Assembly (NCBI GenBank): GCA_903813345.2
Contig: CAIIXF020000011.1
Location: forward strand, 31,862,166-31,926,165
Direction: 5' to 3'
Length of the DNA stretch: 64,000 nucleotides
Origin: Owenia fusiformis
Lineage: Eukaryota; Annelida; Polychaeta; Sabellida; Oweniidae
A program made the position numbers and the translations under genes. Below are positions 2,390 through 63,122 of this stretch, in pieces. Under the pieces are notes generated by a model that was not told the origin of the DNA, ran no database searches, and saw nothing but the letters and a program-made list of their open reading frames with translations. Numbering within the stretch: position 1 is the first letter of the stretch; the number at the start of each line of letters is the position of its first letter.

Positions 2390-3565
2390 TCTAGGTCAAG
2401 GTCAAAGGTCAAAATTTAGGTCAAATCTAAGTTTTTTTCAAGTTTCTCAAATCCTGACACTACACTTCAATATTTTTGGCTGAATTTTTGCATACAGATA
2501 GATATTAGTATTCTATTAGTCTTAGCCTTTTGCCGTCTAGAGAAATTTTGCCTAGATCTTGAGATATTGAAGGTCAAAAAAAGGTCAAAAAACATCTTTT
2601 TTCAACTTGCTACAAATTGACCAAATCTTTTTTTAAAACTCATCTACAAGTTCGCAGGATTCCAAATCTGACCTTACTTTTGACCTTTGACCTTTAGTTG
2701 ACCTTCAGTGACCTCCGAAAGGTCAAAAAAGTTGATTTTTCAAATCAATTTTCTGGATTCAAATTTAGGTATGTACATTCACAAAAGACCGTCTGAGGTC
2801 TAAAAAAGTAAAATTTGCAAGGTCAAAGTCATCAAACGAAATCACAAACTGTGTTTTCTAAGTTTCTCAAAATTGGAGACTACAAATCAATTTTTTTTAG
2901 TGAAAGCCAGAATATATATTCCCTTAAAGGTTCTACACATATTAGCAATTGACTATTTATCAAAATTTTACTCCAGTTTTGAGATATTAGAACTCAAAAA
3001 CTGAAAAAATGTCAAATTTCGAAATTTTTCAAGGTCAAATTTCAACTTGCTCTAAATTGACCAAACTTTTTTTTAAAAAGCATCTACAAGATCTCAGGAA
3101 CTCAAATCTGACCTTAGTTTTGACCTATGACCTTGAGTTGACCTTCAGTGACCTTCGAAAGGATTAAAATTTAGATTTTTTCAATCACAAAAGATATACT
3201 GAGGTCTAAAAAAGTAAAATTTTCAAGGTCAAAGGTCAAGATCATCAAACAAGATCACAAACTGTGTTTTCTAAGTTTCCCAAAGTTTGTGACTACAAAT
3301 CAATATTTTTGAATTAAAGTCAGGATATATATTCCTCTAAAGGTTTTACACATATTAACAATTGATTATCTATTAAAATGCTGCACCAGTTCTGAGATAT
3401 TGGACCTCAAAAACTAAAAAGGTCTAATGTTGAAATTTTTCAAGGTCAAATTTCACATTGCTTCAAATTGACCAAACTTTTTTTTTAAATCATCTACAAG
3501 ATGCCTGGAGTTCATATATGACCTTATATTTAAGATTTGACCTTTGGCTGACCTTTAAATGTTCA
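2390..3565. repeat. ~410-430-bp tandem repeat rich in AGGTCA half-sites
   Basis: Blocks starting with a Thr/Leu-codon-like landmark (ACTTGCTACAAATTGACC and variants) recur near 2608, 3044 and 3453. The landmark GAGGTCTAAAAAAGTAAAAT recurs near 2795 and 3201. About 2.5 diverged copies are present. The unit is full of AGGTCA/TGACCT hexamers, including one-base-spaced direct repeats (DR1) at 2399-2411, 2681-2693, 3121-3133 and 3226-3238. Direct inspection shows no coding potential. Confidence 0.75.
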
Positions 3566-4861
3566 AAAAAGCCTACGGGGCCTCTGTAAGATTGCTCGCA
3601 ATCTTTAATTTTTGCGCAAAACTGCCACGTGTCCACCATTTCCTCTCTCCATCATATCTTATATCATTTTTATATGACGTCACACCATTAAGAAAAAATA
3701 CATGACAACAGTATCCATAAACAAAATACCTGAATTCTGATCGCAAAAGTTCAATTGAGAGAAACTTAACAAAAAAATAACAATACGATTTTCTATATAA
3801 ACCATAAACATACATGACATGTACTAGATAGTATGAACATGGTAGATGTGTAGTTTAAGGTTATATGATTATCAAATTACAAATAAAATATTTTACATTT
3901 ATTTCATGTTTGTTAATTGTATAACTTTTTAAAAGTAGATACAGTAACATTGTATATCAATCGAAATGATATCATTATACATGTTTACAAAAATGACCGC
4001 ACTATAGTAAACTAGAAATGAAAAAGGAGTAGATAAACATGTTACAGAAAATATGAAAGAGCAAAGAGTTAACATTGCAGAAAATATATTAGAACTACAA
4101 ATCAAGCATAAAGTCAATCAAATTTGTAATTAATATATCTGATTTGACCTGTGTAGGCCTCTCTGTACTAACCTTATTGTGTATATCAGATTTTAAAAAT
4201 GTCAATTTATTTCTAATTCAAATGTTAATGAACTTTACTGCTGAGCTGTATGAATTGTTAGATGTTTTGAGTTTGTTATACTGCATGTTTCAGGAATGTT
4301 TTTGTCCGTTGACATATTTTATCGTTGATTTAAAATGAATTTCCTTCTCTGATATACCAAATATCCCAAACATGATCTAACGTATAAAGAAACATTGTCT
4401 TATATCCACCTCACCCACCATTTAGGAGAATTTCACACAATCCAAGACCATAAAACCATTGTAAATGTCATTCATTCTATTACCATAACAATACATTTTA
4501 AGGAATAGTATGAAGCATTTTCCCATGCCATATCATAATCCCTTAAATTGAATTTAATAATCAAAATACCTTAAATGCTTTTTGATCATCTAAAGCATAT
4601 TTTTTTCGGTTTATAAGCTAAACAATCATGAACAGGAATTGAAATTGTTTTCCATTAGTAAAGGCTTTCTAGCTACTCAGCTGGTGCTGATACTACTGAT
4701 ACACTAGTCCTTTTGACATTTCAGTTCATTTATATCTATTGATTAATCTCATTGTAATTTAGCCCATTGTGAAAACTAGTACATTGCATTTACAAACTGT
4801 AAAGGAATTTAAACACCAAATTCCAATATCATAATTGCAATATCAGTTCAAAGGTTTTCTA
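3566..4861. other. Upstream region of the sulfotransferase-like gene; no gene seen
   Basis: AT-rich, with only short random frames. An AATATCAG word at about 4838-4852, eleven bases before the ATG, could be a splice acceptor for an upstream 5' UTR exon. I could not identify such an exon, nor a TATA box that clearly belongs to the gene. Confidence 0.35.
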
Positions 4862-5911
4862 ATGAAAAAGTACCAGATAATGCCATACAAAATGGCAGGT
4901 AAGGTACGTTTGTATATCTTAATGGCTGTAGTATTTGGATTGACGCTGTTTGACTTATTCATGATGCGAGAAGAAGCAAAAGCCTGTGATATGCCAAGAT
5001 TTGAAGATTTCGAAGATGAGCATCTCGCATACAAAAGAGACATAAAACTCTTAAAAAATAACTCACTTCATGAACAGGAGGACCTAGGAGAGGTGGATTC
5101 CTCTGAAAGGATATTTATAATGCCTGACCCACCCTCGGATAAAACACCACATTTGTCAAATGTCGTGATTATTGGGGCTACAAATTGTGGAACATTAACA
5201 TTGCGTCAGTTTCTCGGATTGAATCACCATATACAAATCACTGAACAACCAACTGTCTGTTACTTTAAGAAAAACTTCCAACAGAATGGAGATGAATGGT
5301 ACTTGGAACAAATGCCTTACAGTTCAGCGGAAGATATAGTTCTTGAATCATGTCCATATTATTTTTCAAGTAAAGAGGTTCCAGAAACTATGTACAAATT
5401 TAACCCAAACTTGAAACTTTTATTAATTGTTTGTGATCCTATACAGCGACTATTCTCACGATATACAGATATGAAACTTAACCAACGGATAAATGTCACA
5501 TTGGCCCAGTTCATATTAAATAAACACACCAACCAAGTGCAGCCATATCACTTTGAGGTACGCTATGGATTGTATGCAGAACATCTAAAAAAATTCCTCA
5601 ATGCTGGTTATAACCTAAGCCAAGTTCATGTTATTGATGGGGATAAATTTAAGGTTGATCCAGTTTCTGAACTAAAAAGAGTAGAAGATTTCCTTCATAT
5701 TGAAAATGTTATTAATAACAGTATGGTTTATTATGATGACATCAAGGGATATTTTTGCATGCTGAAATGGGGTCTGGAGGTATGCATGCCCAAAGGAAAA
5801 GGAAAGTTAAAAAGCAATGACAAGGAAACATTAAGCAAACTTTCAGAATTTTACAAAATGTCAAATGAACAATTTTTTGAATTGATTGGACAAAGATTTC
5901 CATGGAAATAA
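4862..5911 (+). CDS. Heparan sulfate 3-O-sulfotransferase-like protein, predicted catalytically dead
   Basis: An uninterrupted 349-residue frame starts at the first ATG (4862) and ends in TAA (5909-5911). It has the type II Golgi layout of HS3ST enzymes: a short basic N-terminus, one membrane span at about residues 15-35, an acidic stem to about 90, then a sulfotransferase domain that aligns end to end with HS3ST. Landmarks are VVIIGATNCGT (101-111), WYLEQMPYS (146-154), ESCPYYF (162-168), LLLIVCDPIQRLFSRYTD (186-203), VHVIDGDKF (255-263), a Cys pair at 299/308 with the family's eight-residue spacing, and FFELIGQRFPW at the end. The family transfers sulfate from PAPS to glucosamine of heparan sulfate. 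Here the PAPS-binding Lys of the KGGT loop is Asn108, the Arg of RDP is Cys191, the catalytic Glu aligns with Thr131 and the EKTP Lys with Ser163. The 3'-phosphate Ser (199) is kept. The frame and fold are intact, so I infer a pseudoenzyme. HS3ST assignment from memory of the family alignment is strong; loss of activity is inference. Confidence 0.85.
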   Translation: MKKYQIMPYKMAGKVRLYILMAVVFGLTLFDLFMMREEAKACDMPRFEDFEDEHLAYKRDIKLLKNNSLHEQEDLGEVDSSERIFIMPDPPSDKTPHLSNVVIIGATNCGTLTLRQFLGLNHHIQITEQPTVCYFKKNFQQNGDEWYLEQMPYSSAEDIVLESCPYYFSSKEVPETMYKFNPNLKLLLIVCDPIQRLFSRYTDMKLNQRINVTLAQFILNKHTNQVQPYHFEVRYGLYAEHLKKFLNAGYNLSQVHVIDGDKFKVDPVSELKRVEDFLHIENVINNSMVYYDDIKGYFCMLKWGLEVCMPKGKGKLKSNDKETLSKLSEFYKMSNEQFFELIGQRFPWK

Positions 5912-6122
5912 TATGAATGATGTCAGATGTTTATGAGAACTTGTGTTGTACAAATTGATTATTTCTGAAAAAGGTCAAAATTGGATAACTCTAAAGTCTA
6001 AATAAGGATATCCATTTATATATCATGTATTTAAACAAGGAGATCCATATATAATCCCACCCTAAGTGCTTTATATGATTGTATACTAGCATTGTATAAC
6101 TTCGGTATAAAACCAACACTCA
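5912..6122. other. 3' flank of the sulfotransferase-like gene
   Basis: AT-rich presumed 3' UTR and spacer of about 200 bases. No clear polyadenylation signal close to the stop codon was seen. Confidence 0.35.
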
Positions 6123-6188
6123 TCGTATACAACTCTTGAGAATGATATACAACTCCTGGATAGCGTATACAACTCCTGGGTAGCGTAT
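6123..6188. repeat. Three copies of a ~24-bp unit at the LINE 3' junction
   Basis: GTATACAACTC(C/T)TG(G/A) recurs three times with slightly varying spacers. It abuts the (TAA)n-like tail of the LINE fragment to its right. It may be part of the insertion site or a local slippage product. Confidence 0.65.
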
Positions 6189-7400
6189 TATTATTATTAT
6201 ATCTTTATTTCCCATTATTCATGGATCATTTTACAACGTAATTACAGGTTAATAAAGTGTATAAAAACTTTCAAACGAAGGTTGTTTTTGTTTTGTTTTT
6301 AAAAATGGTAGTTATTTACATCATTTATACATTTATGTTGAGCAGAAAGCTCTAACACCTTACATTATTATCGCTTTAATCTGGAAACGCTGGAACCAAT
6401 GAGATTCCGTTTACAAAAATCAATTTGTGTATTTGTGGCAAAATTTTACTTAATGCTGCTATTTTGTCGCTTGTGTCTTCATCAGCGTCGCGGGGGTCAC
6501 ATACTAAGTCGTGCATGGTCATACCTTTGCAGACAGCATCACAGCAGCATTGAAAGAGTAAATGATTTACTGTATCTTTAAATAAATTTCCGCATTTTTC
6601 ACATAAATGATTGGTTTCTTTGTCTTCAGGAAGTGCTACTAGTTTCGCTAGTGTGTAACAGTATTCTAATAGATGCGGATGTTTTTGACCAGTAGTCCAT
6701 GTGATATTGTTAGATAATTCGACTTTGGTCAACCTTAGAGTGCTGATGCTAGCTTCAACTTGTATTTGAACGTTATTTTTACAAATCAATTTCCATAGTT
6801 TTGTTGGGGGAAAGTACCCGTCATCTAAAAATCTTTCTAAGTATTCATTTAGACTGTACTTCTGAAGTATGTTTTGGATGTCTGGTATAAAACCTTTTTG
6901 TTTATGGGAAGCATTTTCTGTTCTGCATAGATGTGCACGAAATAAGAAAATGTTCTTTGTAACAGTGTTGCCCATGTTGCAGATTCGCCCAAGTAAAGAT
7001 AATTTTTTTAATTCAATAATTTGAAGAATGTCTTTACAGTTTAAAAGTCCAAGCACAATATCAGTCTTCGTGCATCTGTATAGGCCTTGCAAGCGCTTGA
7101 GGATAAATCGGTAGGCCCGTTGTAATATTAGGCACTGGGAGGTTGTTAATTCATTCCACAGTTCGCAACCATGTAAGGCGGAAGGGATGCAAATAGTGTT
7201 AATGAGCTTCAAGCCAGTTAGAGGATTTAGACCTTTCGGGTGAACGCCAACTCCAACGAGCGAAGCGAAAGTTGTTTTCAAGGATGAAGCAGCTTTGTCT
7301 ATGGCCTTGTTCAGACTGAGATTTGAATCATATATGTTTCCAAGATGTTTGAGTGAGGATACTTCAATTATTTCTCCATCAGATGACATCCATTTATGTT
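6188..7400 (-). mobile_element. 5'-truncated non-LTR retrotransposon (LINE)
   Basis: The minus strand carries the C-terminal part of a reverse-transcriptase ORF, a ~185-bp 3' UTR, and a terminal run of ATA/TAA triplets at about 6188-6200, next to GGGAAATAAAG. Such simple 3' tails are typical of several LINE clades (CR1/L2-like, RTE-like). The RT catalytic core, the endonuclease and any first ORF are missing. A stop codon lies just upstream of the open frame near 7400, so the copy is 5' truncated as usual for target-primed reverse transcription. No target-site duplication could be defined. Confidence 0.8.
6376..7389 (-). pseudogene. LINE reverse-transcriptase C-terminal fragment
   Basis: An open frame of 337 codons with no internal stop. 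It begins in the connector just after the RT palm: SLKHLGNIYDSNLSLNKAID matches the usual YLGx...D...L...I motif that follows RT domains. A thumb-like region with CIPSALHGCELW (about residues 67-78) follows. Near the C-terminus lies a CEKCGNLFKDTVNHLLFQC zinc-knuckle-like motif, Cys-x2-Cys...His...Cys, of the sort found downstream of RT in CR1/L2/Jockey-type elements. The YxDD active site is absent, so the fragment cannot polymerise. The intact frame over 1 kb suggests a fairly young insertion. The ATG is fortuitous. Clade assignment is not possible by eye. Confidence 0.8.
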
Positions 7401-7765
7401 TTATTCACTCGTTCCCTTCAGTCACTCGTGAATATATCATATACTCACTTGAGTATAAACACGATATACAGAATCAACCGTTATATAACCTCATAATATC
7501 TATCTAGGATGTGTATATATTTAAATGACAATGGCCAAAGATGGCAAAGAATTCAGTGGGTTTAAAGAAATGCTTAAACATGTAAACATAGCTTCAAAAA
7601 TCTCCCAAAATGATAAATTCAATGAAAATATGCAAAACCAGTTAATAAATAATTATGAAGAGAAAATGTGATATTTATTTAATTCATTTTTGATGTACAC
7701 AGCAATATTTACACACACATGAATTGGACTGGATTCTTGTTAGACATACATCATTGTCCTAACAT
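7401..7765. other. Spacer, no feature recognised
   Basis: AT-rich sequence between the LINE and the first copy of the GGCTGGTATC element. Nothing specific is seen. Confidence 0.3.
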
Positions 7766-7960
7766 CACAGGCTGGTATCGAAAAATTTGTCCGTTGTGAC
7801 AGAGCGTGTTATTTTGCATAGAAACATGAGGAAATCCACGCAATTTATTTTCTACTCATGTTTCGCTATATCAAAGAAAATTACCTACTCCATGCAATGG
7901 ATATATCATTTGCGGGTAACCTTAACTTCTGTTAACACAGTTGAAGTAAAAGCTATTGAA
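7766..7960 (+). mobile_element. One arm of a CACAGGCTGGTATC-type MITE
   Basis: The sequence CACAGGCTGGTATCGAAAAA and about 190 bases after it match the left arm of the complete element at 9591-9945. Shared words are GTCCGNTGTGA, GCATAGAAACA, CTACTCCATGCAATG and ATTTGCGGGTAACCTTAACTTC. A further copy of the TGTCCGCTGTGACGGAGC word lies at about 8117-8135. The matching right end was not found, so this copy is incomplete. Confidence 0.65.
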
Positions 7961-9590
7961 ATCGGCGCCAGAGTATCATACTCCAAAATATACCATTTGT
8001 TTTATTTCTATTAAAATGTACATTATAGTGACACAATGATAATATTTACATATGTTTTCAGCATAACTCTGAAGGTATTAATGAGATATTGATAAAATAA
8101 AGTTTAAATTTTTTGTCCGCTGTGACGGAGCAGTTTCAAATCTGAGTACGTTATGAATTCAAGATTTATAATAATATATCTTTTACAACTACACTGTGGA
8201 GGAGCGAACCTGTCAAATCTCTTTCGTAAAGTATTCTGAAAAATGAAATGTAATAAAAGTACACAATTCAAATTTTGAGATGTATACTAGTATATGACCA
8301 CTCTTTAAGCTTTTTCTCAGTTTGTACTGCAATCCAATTTCCCTCTATAGTCCCTCTATAGTCGTACCAAAAGGTAAGTGGTATACGAAAATGCAAAATT
8401 TAATTTTAAGATTGTTCTTTATTTGAATAAGAGTTAGGGTTATCTGATGCAAATACAGTAAGCAAAACATATGACTGAAACAAAAGGTTGGTGTCACTTT
8501 TTGTGTAAGATCCAGTTTTGCCAGCAAAGGAATAGACGAAACATTTTGTAATGCTCATAAATGTGCATCTACAATGCAGGTGAGCTAGTCATCTGAAACT
8601 TCTTGTGGAGTTGCAAAATGGAGTGTAGTTTTGATGTGCGAAAAACACCAGAAAAACTGACACATACTCTTAACATGAGAATAAAGATAAAAGACTTTAC
8701 AAGAAAAAAGATTACGTGTACATTCATAGATGGCAACATATGCTAATAATATGTAATATAAATTATACACTTGTTATATCTACAAGCCTATAGGATATAG
8801 GATTGTATATCATTAGTTTATCCGTCTATCCATCAGTCCATTTTCTGTTCATCCTTCTGTTTGCAGTAGCATCATCCGTTTTTTATTCATGAAAACTGCC
8901 ATTTATCAGGATCATTGCTCGTGTCCATTTTATGGAAGTATATGCTGATAGTTTACACCATTGGTCCTGACTCCCACTTTAGTTCATTTTGGAGAAATCA
9001 GATTTGGCACCATGTACGCTCACAAAATATTGCCATATTTTAATAGATTAGATGGTCTGATACAAATTATATAAACTGGAATTCGGAAAATAAAATTCAT
9101 TGTATGCTTAGCAGAAGTACCAGAAACTGAAATTCTCACATCAGCAGTGCAAGTCAGCAATATCAACATTTTCTGTGATCTGGAGTATGAAACGTGTCTA
9201 TGAAAGATGTTATTTTGATCATGGCTCTTCTTTAATGATGCATATTGTCCAGAATGAGTTCCTAGACTTTAACATGATTGAATTGAAAACAGTTGATTAA
9301 AGTGATTCAATGTGGCATGATTGATTGCAACCTTGCATGTTTTCTCAGAGAAGACATATATCCAACATGGTAGTTTGGTGCTCAGACTAATTTTGAATGA
9401 GGAAATACATGTTTGTAGGAACTTGGGCTTTCACGCGTCTCTTCAAAGACTATGGCAGAAAGTTGTGAGACAATGAAAACTCCGAATATGCATTGTAATC
9501 TTGAATATATTTGTAACTTATGCACACTCCCAATAAAACCTGTACAACAGAACACATCTTTAATTTGAACACCTTTAATATATAAATGAA
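7961..9590. other. Intergenic stretch without a recognised gene
   Basis: AT-rich with only short random frames on both strands. A 14-bp CCCTCTATAGT duplication lies near 8341. No splice-bounded coding segment was found. Confidence 0.35.
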
Positions 9591-12229: not shown

Positions 12230-13334
12230 CAGGGTGGGCCAAAAAAACCAATACCAACTTCAAATCAGGATAAAAAATAGTTACACTCAATATGGTACAT
12301 TGACTTACATATCATTTTAAAGGTTATACAATTTCAAACAATTTGGTATATAACACTATGTCATGAAATCAATAGTAAAGTTTTATTATACTTATTTGGG
12401 AGGCCGGGTTGCTATTTGGGGTCTCTAGATTTTAGGGAGAAAATAGTAAATCTGCGGGATTATGTTCATTTTTTATTTATTGAATATCATTCTTTTGTTA
12501 GGTGAATACATGCTTTGATATTGATATTTGCATCATTGCGCGACTAAATTTATTGTTTATGAATTTCAGTGTTGTTTAATAACATTTTACACTTTATTTA
12601 TTTAAACAATTTTAACAATTGCTCAATGTGCCCCACCCCCATCTGCATCAACAATAAGCTTCAAGTGGTAGCGCAATCTATCAATAGGCTTATTGAGAGA
12701 TTTCTGTTGCTTTCAGCACTTTAGGATTTTGTTTCAGCTCATCAATGCTGTTTATTGGATGCTTTTGATTGTACCATTTCCTCGAGATGGCTCCATGTAT
12801 GGTAATCAACCACATTAGCATCGGGCTGTTGGGTGGCCAAGCATCGAGATCAATCAAATTGACACCTTGTTTGCAAAGAAATGCCAATGTCTCCTTTGAT
12901 TTATGGTACGAGGCAATGTCTTGTTGGAAAATAAAATCTTCGTCACATATACATTTAATGTCTTTTAACAGACCCCCTTTGAGTACTTTTTGATAATAAA
13001 CAACACTAAAATTCATAAACAATAAGTAAGTCACACAATATGCAAATATATAAGCATGTATTTACCTAACAAAATGATATTCTACAAATGAAAAATTAAC
13101 ATTATTCCGCAAATTTACTATTTTCTCCCTAAAATCTGGATACCTTAAATACGGACCCGGCTTCCCAAATAAGCATAATAAAACTTTAATATTGATTTCA
13201 TGACATAGTGTTATATACCAAATTGTTCGAAAATGAATTACCTTTAAAATGATATATAAATTAATGTATCATATTGAACATAGCTATTTTTATTCTGATT
13301 TAAAGTTGGGTATTGTTTTTTTTGGCCCACCCTG
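12230..13334 (-). mobile_element. Decayed Tc1/mariner-type transposon with ~300-bp TIRs
   Basis: The ends read CAGGGTGGGCCAAAAAAACC and its complement GGTT...GGCCCACCCTG. TA dinucleotides sit at 12228-12229 and 13335-13336, the exact target duplication expected for IS630/Tc1/mariner elements. The two arms are inverted copies over about 300 bases (12230-12540 and 13025-13334). That is far longer than the ~30-bp TIRs of classical mariner and gives a foldback design. Between them the minus strand encodes the C-terminal part of a transposase. The element is 1,105 bp and non-autonomous. It shares its TIR with the element at 37652-39183. Confidence 0.9.
12620..13034 (-). pseudogene. Mariner-type transposase, C-terminal remnant with a frameshift
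   Basis: The minus frame reads DEDFIFQQDIASYHKSKET, the second catalytic Asp of the DDE/D domain in the usual FQQD context (the following NAP is changed to IAS). WPPNSP follows about 30 residues later. There the frame shifts by one base: the other frame continues with DANVVDYHTW, giving the third-acid region. The original frame then resumes an INSIDELKQ-like helix. A stop follows, then RLRYHLKLIVDADGG, the normal C-terminal end of the family. The first catalytic Asp and the helix-turn-helix DNA-binding half are absent. It cannot transpose itself. Confidence 0.85.
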
Positions 13335-26767: not shown

Positions 26768-28500
26768 TTCCCGTATTCGTTTTTAGCGGGAGGGGTGGTT
26801 GTTTATGCGTATTGGTTTATTGCATAAAGGCGTGGTCAGTTTATTGATGAATTTTGGTTTGGTTTGGTTTGTGGTTAAGCCATATGCTCATGTATGTTAT
26901 ATGTTGATATTAAGTGTATTTAAAGGGTTGTTGGCTTGTTTGTGTTTGGTTGTATTTTGTGGCATTTTGTGGTGTTTTCAATTTGTTGGGTTGGTATGCG
27001 TTTGGCGGTGTCTGTGGTGGGTTGAGGGTAGGTACATTACATTTTGGTGGTTCAGGTGGTAAGTTTACTGTTTCAGCTTTCCGTTGGTATATGTGATATG
27101 TTGCTAGCATATCTTGTTGTTGAGATATTAACTTGAATGAAGGGTTTAATGGCCCGTATTTTAAATATTTTGGTTTTCCGATATTTGTGTTTTATCGGGA
27201 GGGTGTATGTGTATTGGTTAATTGCATCGGGGTATGGTCGGTTCAATGTTGAAATTGGATTTGGTTGTTTTGTTCATTGTTTCAGCTTCATGGTCAGGTA
27301 TATGTTATGTTCATATTGTGTGTATTAGAAGAGTTGTTGCCTTTTTCGTGTTTGGTCGTGTTTTGGTGTTTTCGGCATTTTCCGGTATTTTCGATTTGTT
27401 GAGTTGGTTTGAGTTTGGTGGTGACTAGGATGGGTCTATGGTAGGTAAATTGTCTTTTGATGGTTCAGGTGGCTTGTTTAATGTTTTAGCTTTCCGTTGG
27501 TGTGTGCATTATGTTCGTGGCATATCTTGTTGTTGAGATATTAACTTTAATGTAGGGTTTGATGGCCCGTATTTAAAATATTTTGATTTTCCCATATTTG
27601 TGTTTTATCGGGAGGGTGTATGTGTATTGGTTAATTGCATCGGGGTATGGTCGGCTCAATGTTGAAATTGGATTTGGTTGTTTTGTTCATTGTTTCAGCT
27701 TCATGGTCAGGTATATGTTATGTTCATATTGTGTGTATTAGAAGAGTTGTTGCCTTTTTCGTGTTTGGTCGTGTTTTGGTGTTTTCGGCATTTTGCGGTA
27801 TTTTCGATTTGTTGAGTTGGTTTGAGTTTGGTGGTGACTAGGATGGGTCTATGGTAGGTAAATTGTCTTTTGATGGTTCAGGTGGCTTGTTTAATGTTTT
27901 AGCTTTCCGTTGGTGTGTGCATTATGTTCGTGGCATATCTCGTTGTTGAGATATTAACTTGAATGAAGGGTTTGATGGCCCGTATTTCAAATATTTGATT
28001 TTCTCATATTTGTGTTTTATCGGGAGGGTGTATGCGTATTGGTTGATTGCATCATGGTATGGTCAGTTCGATGTTGAAATTTTAATTTGGTTGTTTTGTT
28101 CATTGGGTCGGCTTCATGGCCAGGTATATGTAATGTTCATATTGTGTGTATTAGGAGGGTTGTTAACTTTCCTGTGTTAGGAAGTGTTTTGGTGTTTTCG
28201 GCATTTTGCGGTATTTTCGATTCTTTAAGTTGGTTTGAGTTTGGCGGTGTTTAGGGTAGGTCTATGATCGGTAAATCGTTTTTCTGTTGGTTCAGGCGGC
28301 TTGTTTAATGTTTTTGCTTCCTGTTGGTTTGTGTATTATGTTCGTGGCATATCTTGTTGTTGAGATATTAACTTGGATGTAGGGTTTAATGGTCCGTATT
28401 TCAAATATTTTGATTTTCCCATATTTGTGTTGTATCGGGATGCATATTGGTTGATTGTGTCTGTGTGTGGTTGGTTTATTGTTTAAGTCTGGTCTGATTG
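26768..28500. repeat. ~412-bp tandem satellite, about four copies
   Basis: Landmarks such as TATCGGGAGGGTGTATG, GTTGTTGAGATATTAACTT and TTCCGTTGGT recur every 411-413 bases. Two central copies are nearly identical (offset 413 bp, for example 27222 and 27635), while the outer copies have diverged. The + strand is strongly enriched in T and G and poor in C and A throughout. Short hairpins (ATATCT...AGATAT) recur once per unit. Open frames here are repeats of the same short frame and carry no domain. Confidence 0.85.
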
Positions 28501-48299: not shown

Positions 48300-48535
48300 T
48301 ACTTGATGTTGTCATTTTCAACATTTTCATGTTTTGGGATTTCATGATTGTCATTTTCAACATTTTCATGTTTTGGGATTTCATGATTGTCATTTTCAAC
48401 AATTTCATGTTTTGGGATTTCATGATTGTCATTTTCAACATTTTCATGTTTTGGGATTTCATGATTGTCATTTTCAGCAATTTCATGTTTTGGGATTTCA
48501 TGATTGTCATTTTCAACATTTTCATGCGCAATAAT
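48300..48535. repeat. 39-bp minisatellite, ~6 copies
   Basis: The unit TCATTTTCAACATTTTCATG + TTTTGGGATTTCATGATTG repeats with almost no divergence. The copies differ mainly at one site (CAACATTTTC versus CARCAATTTC) in the order A A B A B A. The 39-base period is a multiple of three, so both strands show long repetitive frames (13-residue unit HEIPKHENVENDN on the minus strand). No start, splice or domain context supports coding. Confidence 0.85.
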
Positions 48536-62106: not shown

Positions 62107-62648
62107 TAATTTGGGTCAGATAACATGGCAGCCCATTGTTGATAAAGGTAAAAATGCTCTTAAATTCAGATTTAGCGGATCAATTTTCATATTACTTTTT
62201 TATGTTTACATGTAAAAATCAAATTTCTGAAAATATGTCAAGTGAAAGAAAATATTTTCTGTCTAATACAAAAACATGTTTCACTTTTTGTGATATTTTA
62301 ACTTATGGGGAATCAACCCGACCTTGAAGTCACTTTTTTAAAGAATATTAAATTGTTAAAGTTGTACATTTCAAATATTAAATCACTTTGACTAAATTTT
62401 GAATATTTAATGATGTAAATCAAGACTATCTTGCATCTGGTGCAATTAATCCATTTATACAAATTCTAGCAATGATATAATAAATCCATAGTATATATTT
62501 CATGAGTATCTCCCTAGAAGATTAGGTATATGTCCCTTTGAGTTTGATTTTAGCTCCTTTATCATGTTTAAATCTGTCATGAACTTCTTGTGTCCCTTTA
62601 ACTCTTTTAAGTCCCTTTAACTCATCATAATGTCTTCTATATTTCCAG
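62107..62648 (+). other. End of the intron before C2A
   Basis: Repeated TCCCTTTAACTC words near 62530-62625, leading into a short acceptor (ATATTTCCAG). The words TCCCTTTAACTCA also occur within the exon (62765), suggesting local duplication. Confidence 0.4.
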
Positions 62649-63009
62649 AGCCAGGAGAGTGATCAAGGATTTCTATCAGGGATACTAGGTACAAAATCTG
62701 AATCTTCATACAGTAACACAAACAGTCATGGTGCTGCAGCATCTGCCCATTTAGACATTGAGAGTCCCTTTAACTCAGCTGCACCTACTACATTAGGCAG
62801 ACTTAAATTCCAAGTAAACTACGATTATAGTGCCCAGACTTTGTCACTGAAGATACTCAGTGCAGAAAGACTTCCCGCAAAAGATTGGTCCGGGACAAGT
62901 GACCCATATGTAAAAATACTGCTTCTTCCAGACAGGAAAAATAAAGTAGAAACCAAAGTGAAACGAAAATGTTTAAATCCAAGATGGAACGAGATATTTT
63001 TATTTGAAG
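62649..63009 (+). CDS. SYT7: Synaptotagmin-7-like exon: linker end and first half of C2A
   Basis: The acceptor TTTCCAG and perfect donor GAAG|GTAAGT bound 361 bases in phase 0-1. About 57 polar linker residues (Ser/Asn/Gly/Ala-rich) precede the domain start [39 protein letters not shown] and [20 protein letters not shown] follow. This is the first half of a type I C2A domain. AKD and SDP hold the first two Ca2+-binding Asp residues, and KVKRK is the polybasic strand. The combination ETKVKRK.LNP.WNE.FLFEG with the intron after the first base of the Gly codon is characteristic of synaptotagmin-7, rather than the synaptotagmin-1/2/9 or 3/5/6/10 groups. Synaptotagmin-7 is a high-affinity Ca2+ sensor for lysosome and vesicle exocytosis and synaptic facilitation. 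The remaining C2A strands (third Ca2+ loop) and C2B must lie to the right of the window. Confidence 0.9.
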
Positions 63010-63122
63010 GTAAGTGGTATATCTGAGACTAGATATCAGATTCATGGTCTAGAAGGTTAGGATATGGGATATCCTTAGATAATATATGAGGAACCGTGTC
63101 AGTATATTGTTACTATCAGTAT

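Follow-up and report, generated by a model that had tools for sequence, protein, structure and literature searches.

The HS3ST-like locus and its surroundings

The window, i.e., the whole 64-kb stretch of DNA analyzed here, is AT-rich and contains many tandem repeats. On its plus strand, positions 4862–5911 hold an open reading frame of 349 codons that runs from ATG to TAA and is preceded by an in-frame stop at 4832–4834. At the window composition, the chance of 349 open codons from a given start is about 3e-12. The base-by-codon-phase chi-square of this frame (31.7) exceeds those of all 52 equal-length stretches taken for comparison from position 8000 on, if only just (largest value 31.4, median 4.7). 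The features of the locus and the one clear neighbor are as follows.

4862..5911, plus strand: HS3ST1/5-like protein, complete single-exon coding frame, 349 aa (open reading frame, Pfam, solved-structure and fold matches)
4910..4966, plus strand: hydrophobic N-terminal segment, residues 17–35, predicted type II signal anchor (Kyte–Doolittle mean 2.2 over 19 residues; helix in the model)
5183..5185, plus strand: Asn108 (AAT) at the position of the 5'-phosphosulfate-loop Lys (alignment; Lys in active relatives)
5195..5197, plus strand: Leu112 replacing substrate-contacting Arg166 in 3-OST-3 numbering (alignment and 3-OST-3 mutagenesis)
5249..5269, plus strand: Pro130–Lys136 (PTVCYFK) replacing the catalytic Glu and the HFFD patch (alignments)
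5348..5350, plus strand: Ser163 replacing the EKTP Lys215 in 3-OST-3 numbering (alignment)
5432..5434, plus strand: Cys191 (TGT) replacing the RDP Arg (alignment)
5456..5458, plus strand: unchanged Ser199, conserved in the 3'-phosphate-binding helix (invariant in both alignments; role according to an excerpt of PMC11625862)
5468..5470, plus strand: Asp203 replacing Gln255 in 3-OST-3 numbering (alignment)
5756..5785, plus strand: Cys299–Cys308, conserved C-terminal pair (alignment with relatives)
5798..5806, plus strand: Lys313-Gly-Lys315, equivalent to K368-G-R370, Lys kept and Arg replaced by Lys (alignment)
62631–63023, plus strand: exon, start of a C2 domain, synaptotagmin-7-like (closest solved structure 6ank, E 1.6e-41; Pfam C2, E 1.7e-16)

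Apart from this locus, tblastn found no HS3ST-like copy in the 64-kb window, every further match having an E value of at least 4.4. A search at 2500–9000 for a run of at least eight A, as a sign of a retrocopy, found none, which gives a retrocopy no support. Scanning the window against Rfam (at gathering scores) and for tRNA genes yielded nothing. The search for neighboring genes covered part of the window, 11 distinct stretches out of 449 frames of at least 45 residues being compared with Pfam, and among these stretches the synaptotagmin-7-like C2 exon is the only other clear gene piece. Together with the HS3ST gene, it points to an animal as the source of the DNA.

Several further elements were observed. 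The minus strand contains an open frame of 342 codons at 6379–7404, with an ATT-rich stretch near 6185; it has no Pfam match and resembles the C-terminal region of a LINE reverse-transcriptase protein. Another minus-strand open frame, at 12693–13061, resembles the end of a Tc1/mariner transposase (WPPNSP motif); compared with Pfam, it yields only a sub-threshold, chance-like match. A tandem array of a 413-base unit (3.6 copies, 90% matches) occupies 26961–28440, and a two-copy repeat at 2755–3502 has the same period, with a consensus that looks different by eye. A 39-base tandem repeat at 48309–48526 (5.6 copies, 96%) has an open frame on each strand and, when read on the minus strand, gives HEIPKHENVEND-type repeats.

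Family membership and predicted fold

The protein encoded at 4862–5911 matches Pfam Sulfotransfer_1 with E 1.3e-13, and its best relative among solved structures is HS3ST1 (E 9.7e-43), followed by HS3ST5 (6.3e-39), HS3ST3A1 (3.8e-32), and NDST1 (1.5e-20). A structure model of the 349-aa protein was predicted from its alignment with 11 prokaryotic relatives, obtained as 11 loci from 64 pattern matches in prokaryote genomes and used also as an outgroup. The mean pLDDT of the model is 74; it is 76 in the block 131–140, where the catalytic patch lies, and below 50 in segments 286–296 and 308–314. Compared with the PDB, the model matches HS3ST chains best, and these fill the first 14 places (E 7e-18 to 2.3e-15). 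The closest solved relatives by both sequence and predicted fold are HS3ST enzymes, placing the protein in the HS3ST family by descent and fold.

The layout is also of the HS3ST type: the hydrophobic segment 17–35, predicted to be a membrane anchor, is followed by a linker and by the sulfotransferase domain extending to residue 348, with the C299/C308 pair present. These observations bear out the initial annotation, which had described a full-length HS3ST-family frame with neither stops nor frameshifts, and with the fold landmarks, the Cys pair, and the membrane anchor retained.

Among viral contigs, one search gave 52 pattern matches and another gave one match, none of them confirmed as relatives, and none were found among phage records. 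Matches occur in 164 plasmid records, and the 20 listed among them are all annotated as sulfotransferases, with 20.8 to 23.5% identity; they were left out of the later comparisons.

Replacement of active-site residues

The initial annotation had named four key changes, Asn108, Thr131, Ser163, and Cys191. All four are confirmed, and more positions have been erased than it had named. The replacements at Asn108, Ser163, and Cys191 sit in ungapped motifs and are unambiguous. The position of the catalytic Glu corresponds to Thr131 in the alignment with prokaryotic relatives or to Pro130 in the ungapped alignment with HS3STs, and neither residue is acidic. Hence the reported conversion of HFFD to CYFK holds in the Thr131 register, the His and Asp becoming C133 and K136, and fails in the Pro130 register, where the patch reads VCYF and the same two positions are V132 and F135. 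Losses beyond the four named ones are, in 3-OST-3 numbering, R166 to L112, H186 to C133, D189 to K136, and Q255 to D203.

According to the accessible part of the 3-OST-3 study, mutants in ten residues retain less than 1% activity: K162, R166, E184, H186, D189, K215, K368, and R370, which are highly conserved, and the less conserved K161 and Q255 (PMC8341778). The former correspond to N108, L112, T131, C133, K136, S163, K313, and K315 of the protein considered here, respectively, and the latter to T107 and D203. Nine of these ten residues, all except K161, are identical in HS3ST1, HS3ST5, and HS3ST3A1 (compared without a short C-terminal stretch of HS3ST3A1); one of the nine is identical here and one is replaced conservatively (Arg by Lys), in either register around the Glu. 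Of the 76 further positions at which the three enzymes agree, 41 are unchanged (Fisher two-sided p 0.03, in a small test of nine residues picked with the claim in view). At this level of significance, the sequence comparison suggests that residue loss is concentrated at the active site.

The initial annotation had also proposed a residue-by-residue alignment with HS3STs as a check for substitution by neighboring residues. As residues 95–114 contain neither Lys nor Arg, no sequence neighbor is able to substitute for the loop Lys. E128 aligns without gaps with HS3ST1 Glu88, two residues before the catalytic Glu90; Glu88 is called a gate residue in the excerpt consulted (PMC8341778).

Taken together, the features of an active 3-O-sulfotransferase that are absent comprise the loop Lys, the catalytic Glu, the His and Asp of HFFD, the EKTP Lys, and the substrate Arg and Gln. 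Retained at the cofactor and substrate site are Ser199 of the 3'-phosphate helix and, in the lid KGR motif, Lys313, with Lys315 in place of the Arg. Judging by these residues, the protein is very likely inactive as a 3-O-sulfotransferase.

Comparison with NDST1 and prokaryotic relatives

The loop Lys is present in all 11 prokaryotic relatives and in HS3ST1, HS3ST5, and HS3ST3A1; in NDST1 it is Lys614, a proposed catalytic acid according to the available portion of PMC3733922. Since it is found throughout the prokaryotic relatives and the animal enzymes compared, Asn108 is the strongest single sign of inactivity. The RDP Arg, too, occurs in all 11 prokaryotic relatives. In NDST1, which shares the fold and is active, the motif reads Ile-Asn-Pro instead of Arg-Asp-Pro, and therefore the change to Cys191, correctly noted in the initial annotation as present, says little about inactivity by itself.

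Other positions vary among the prokaryotic proteins, which are sulfotransferase-like by sequence: the EKTP Lys position is Ala in nine out of 11, and the Glu is absent in two out of 11. This variation, the lack of the RDP Arg in NDST1, the kept Ser199, and the new Arg200 beside it are the grounds on which the protein could be regarded as a sulfotransferase whose chemistry or acceptor has changed without loss of activity. The loss of the loop Lys shared by the relatives compared and the lack of any Lys or Arg at 95–114 argue against such activity, and we consider it very unlikely.

The two prokaryotic proteins lacking the Glu, at 2977–3831 of both locus L006 (Hongsoonwoonella zoysiae) and locus L007 (Stappia sediminis), are related to each other; QPSAG replaces their KE motif, and the loop Lys, the EK Lys, and the RNP Arg are retained. 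In a further bacterial frame (L011:2995–4998), the N-terminal part is sulfotransferase-like, and the part after it resembles a family 2 glycosyltransferase domain.

Selective retention versus neutral decay

The residue losses and the open frame were jointly considered under a neutral-drift model, which is crude: the present frame is used in place of the ancestor, the ancestor is assumed to have had the usual residues, and the residue list is post hoc. In the frame, 186 single changes create a stop, so that about five stops are expected under drift at 0.1 substitutions per site and about 26 at 0.5; a frame that has drifted by 0.02 substitutions per site stays free of stops with a chance of 0.35. 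Counted from the usual residues, nine changed codons (K108, R112, the Glu, the His, the Asp, K163, R191, Q203, and R315; a set differing from the nine residues of the retention test) require a minimum of 15 or 16 base substitutions, depending on the register. Six of the nine need two or three base changes each; Lys to Asn108 and Arg to Cys191 are single-base changes.

Over the drift levels tried, the joint chance that the four named changes occur and that the frame stays free of stops does not exceed 6.8e-9 in the Thr131 register or 2.0e-7 in the Pro130 register. At 0.5 substitutions per site, the four changes have a chance of 0.008 or 0.05, and all nine of 5e-5 or 3e-4, again depending on the register. 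As the joint chance is at most 2.0e-7, most of the changes probably arose while the frame was still under constraint. Within this model, neutral decay from an active enzyme gene would fit poorly, and retention of the 349-aa protein by selection appears likely.

The same figures bear on two other explanations. One is that the gene is a duplicate which once had a non-catalytic or relaxed role and is only recently a non-functional relic, or else is drifting and stop-free by luck. Recent relics keep their frame, as the chance of 0.35 at 0.02 substitutions per site illustrates, and Asn108 and Cys191 need one base each; at the same time, two thirds of the counted codons need multiple changes, and even in the more lenient register the four changes with no stop do not exceed the upper bound given above. 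A very recent loss of constraint, or a recent loss of function following a long non-catalytic life, would be compatible with these numbers. Overall, we regard such a relic as rather unlikely; if the gene were only that, it would be a case of ordinary gene loss.

The other explanation is that an error of sequencing or assembly changed the residues. Nothing speaks for it directly, beyond the fact that the residues are read from one sequence; the frame is unbroken, the window contains no N, and several codons need at least two base changes, which scattered single-base errors do not readily make. An artefact is therefore extremely improbable.

Heparan sulfate binding

The initial annotation had suggested heparan sulfate binding as one possible retained role. 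As far as the excerpt describes them, the substrate contacts of 3-OST-3 include Arg166, Lys215 and Gln255 (the latter two in one or both binding modes), Lys368, and Arg370 (PMC8341778). The equivalents of the first three are now Leu, Ser, and Asp, and the net charge of the matched domain is +1, compared to +5 in HS3ST1 and +13 in HS3ST5. With several contact residues lost and the net charge lowered, binding of heparan sulfate in the usual cleft looks weakened, and this role is disfavored.

In its most specific form, the suggestion would make the protein a heparan-sulfate-binding pseudoenzyme, a lectin-like decoy masking sites from active HS3STs. The predicted fold is kept, Lys313 and Lys315 stand at the positions of Lys368 and Arg370, and new lysines have appeared at 136–137; set against the lost contacts and the low charge, these features leave the decoy an improbable option.

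Proposed role and comparison with known systems

The fold, the anchor, and the Cys pair are kept and most cofactor and substrate residues are lost; hence a protein–protein role is the best guess. The proposal is that the gene encodes a membrane protein of type II topology, probably located in the Golgi, which keeps the HS3ST sulfotransferase fold, has lost the capacity for 3-O-sulfation, and is probably kept for a non-catalytic job. The intact frame, the predicted fold, and the residue losses are computed results, from which inactivity, the Golgi location, and selective retention are inferred. The partner of the protein in the Golgi might be an active HS3ST or a different heparan-sulfate enzyme, whose activity, stability, or location the pairing might alter, similarly to the effect of Fam20A on Fam20C; this partner mechanism, suggested by analogy, is the most tentative element of the proposal. 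As a whole, an inactive Golgi pseudo-sulfotransferase, probably kept for a non-catalytic role that would most likely be exerted via an active-enzyme partner, is our tentative preference, held with somewhat less than even confidence; the kept Ser199, Lys313, and Lys315 weigh against it. A narrower version, in which a dedicated pseudo-sulfotransferase subunit attaches to active HS3STs in the Golgi and controls the place or amount of 3-O-sulfation, is conceivable by the same analogy, and we rate it as distinctly less probable.

Pseudoenzymes are known in many families. The candidate described here is thus of a known kind as such, placed within a heparan sulfate sulfotransferase family and, judging by its residues, probably catalytically dead. 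No report of an inactive HS3ST paralogue was found in the titles and abstract beginnings of the open-licence literature. To our knowledge, the control of heparan sulfate 3-O-sulfation is poorly understood. If the narrower version were true, it would add a regulatory layer to heparan sulfate patterning in this animal lineage, and a naturally inactive paralogue of HS3ST that proved to be conserved and expressed could be tested as a regulator. The modification itself is rare, as the abstract of PMC8341778 states.

Among other animals, Lingula is reported to have an expanded set of carbohydrate sulfotransferases (30 copies), and Pinna rudis expanded carbohydrate and galactose sulfotransferases, in passages that do not deal with HS3ST. 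Such expanded families in some lophotrochozoans temper the interest of the present gene. Oyster hs3s5 is a larval muscle marker, and nothing in the passage concerned ties it to the frame at 4862–5911.

The protein resembles HS3ST1 and HS3ST5 in the predicted fold, the extent of the sulfotransferase domain, the C-terminal Cys pair, and the PAPS-site Ser, at 31–32% identity, and differs from them in the replaced loop Lys, catalytic Glu, HFFD His and Asp, EKTP Lys, RDP Arg, and substrate Arg and Gln. The N-sulfotransferase domain of NDST1 shares the fold and likewise lacks the RDP Arg; unlike the 349-aa protein, which is very likely inactive, it is an active enzyme that has the EKS Lys, and its site contains, according to the portion available, Lys614, Glu641, His716, Lys833, and Arg835 (PMC3733922). 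The closest functional parallel may be Fam20A, a pseudokinase of the secretory pathway that increases the activity of Fam20C, to which it is paralogous (PMC4421793). The likeness is one of working mode only, that of a secretory-pathway pseudoenzyme paralogous to an active enzyme: Fam20A belongs to a kinase family, and its partner and effect have been demonstrated, whereas those of the protein considered here are proposed by analogy.
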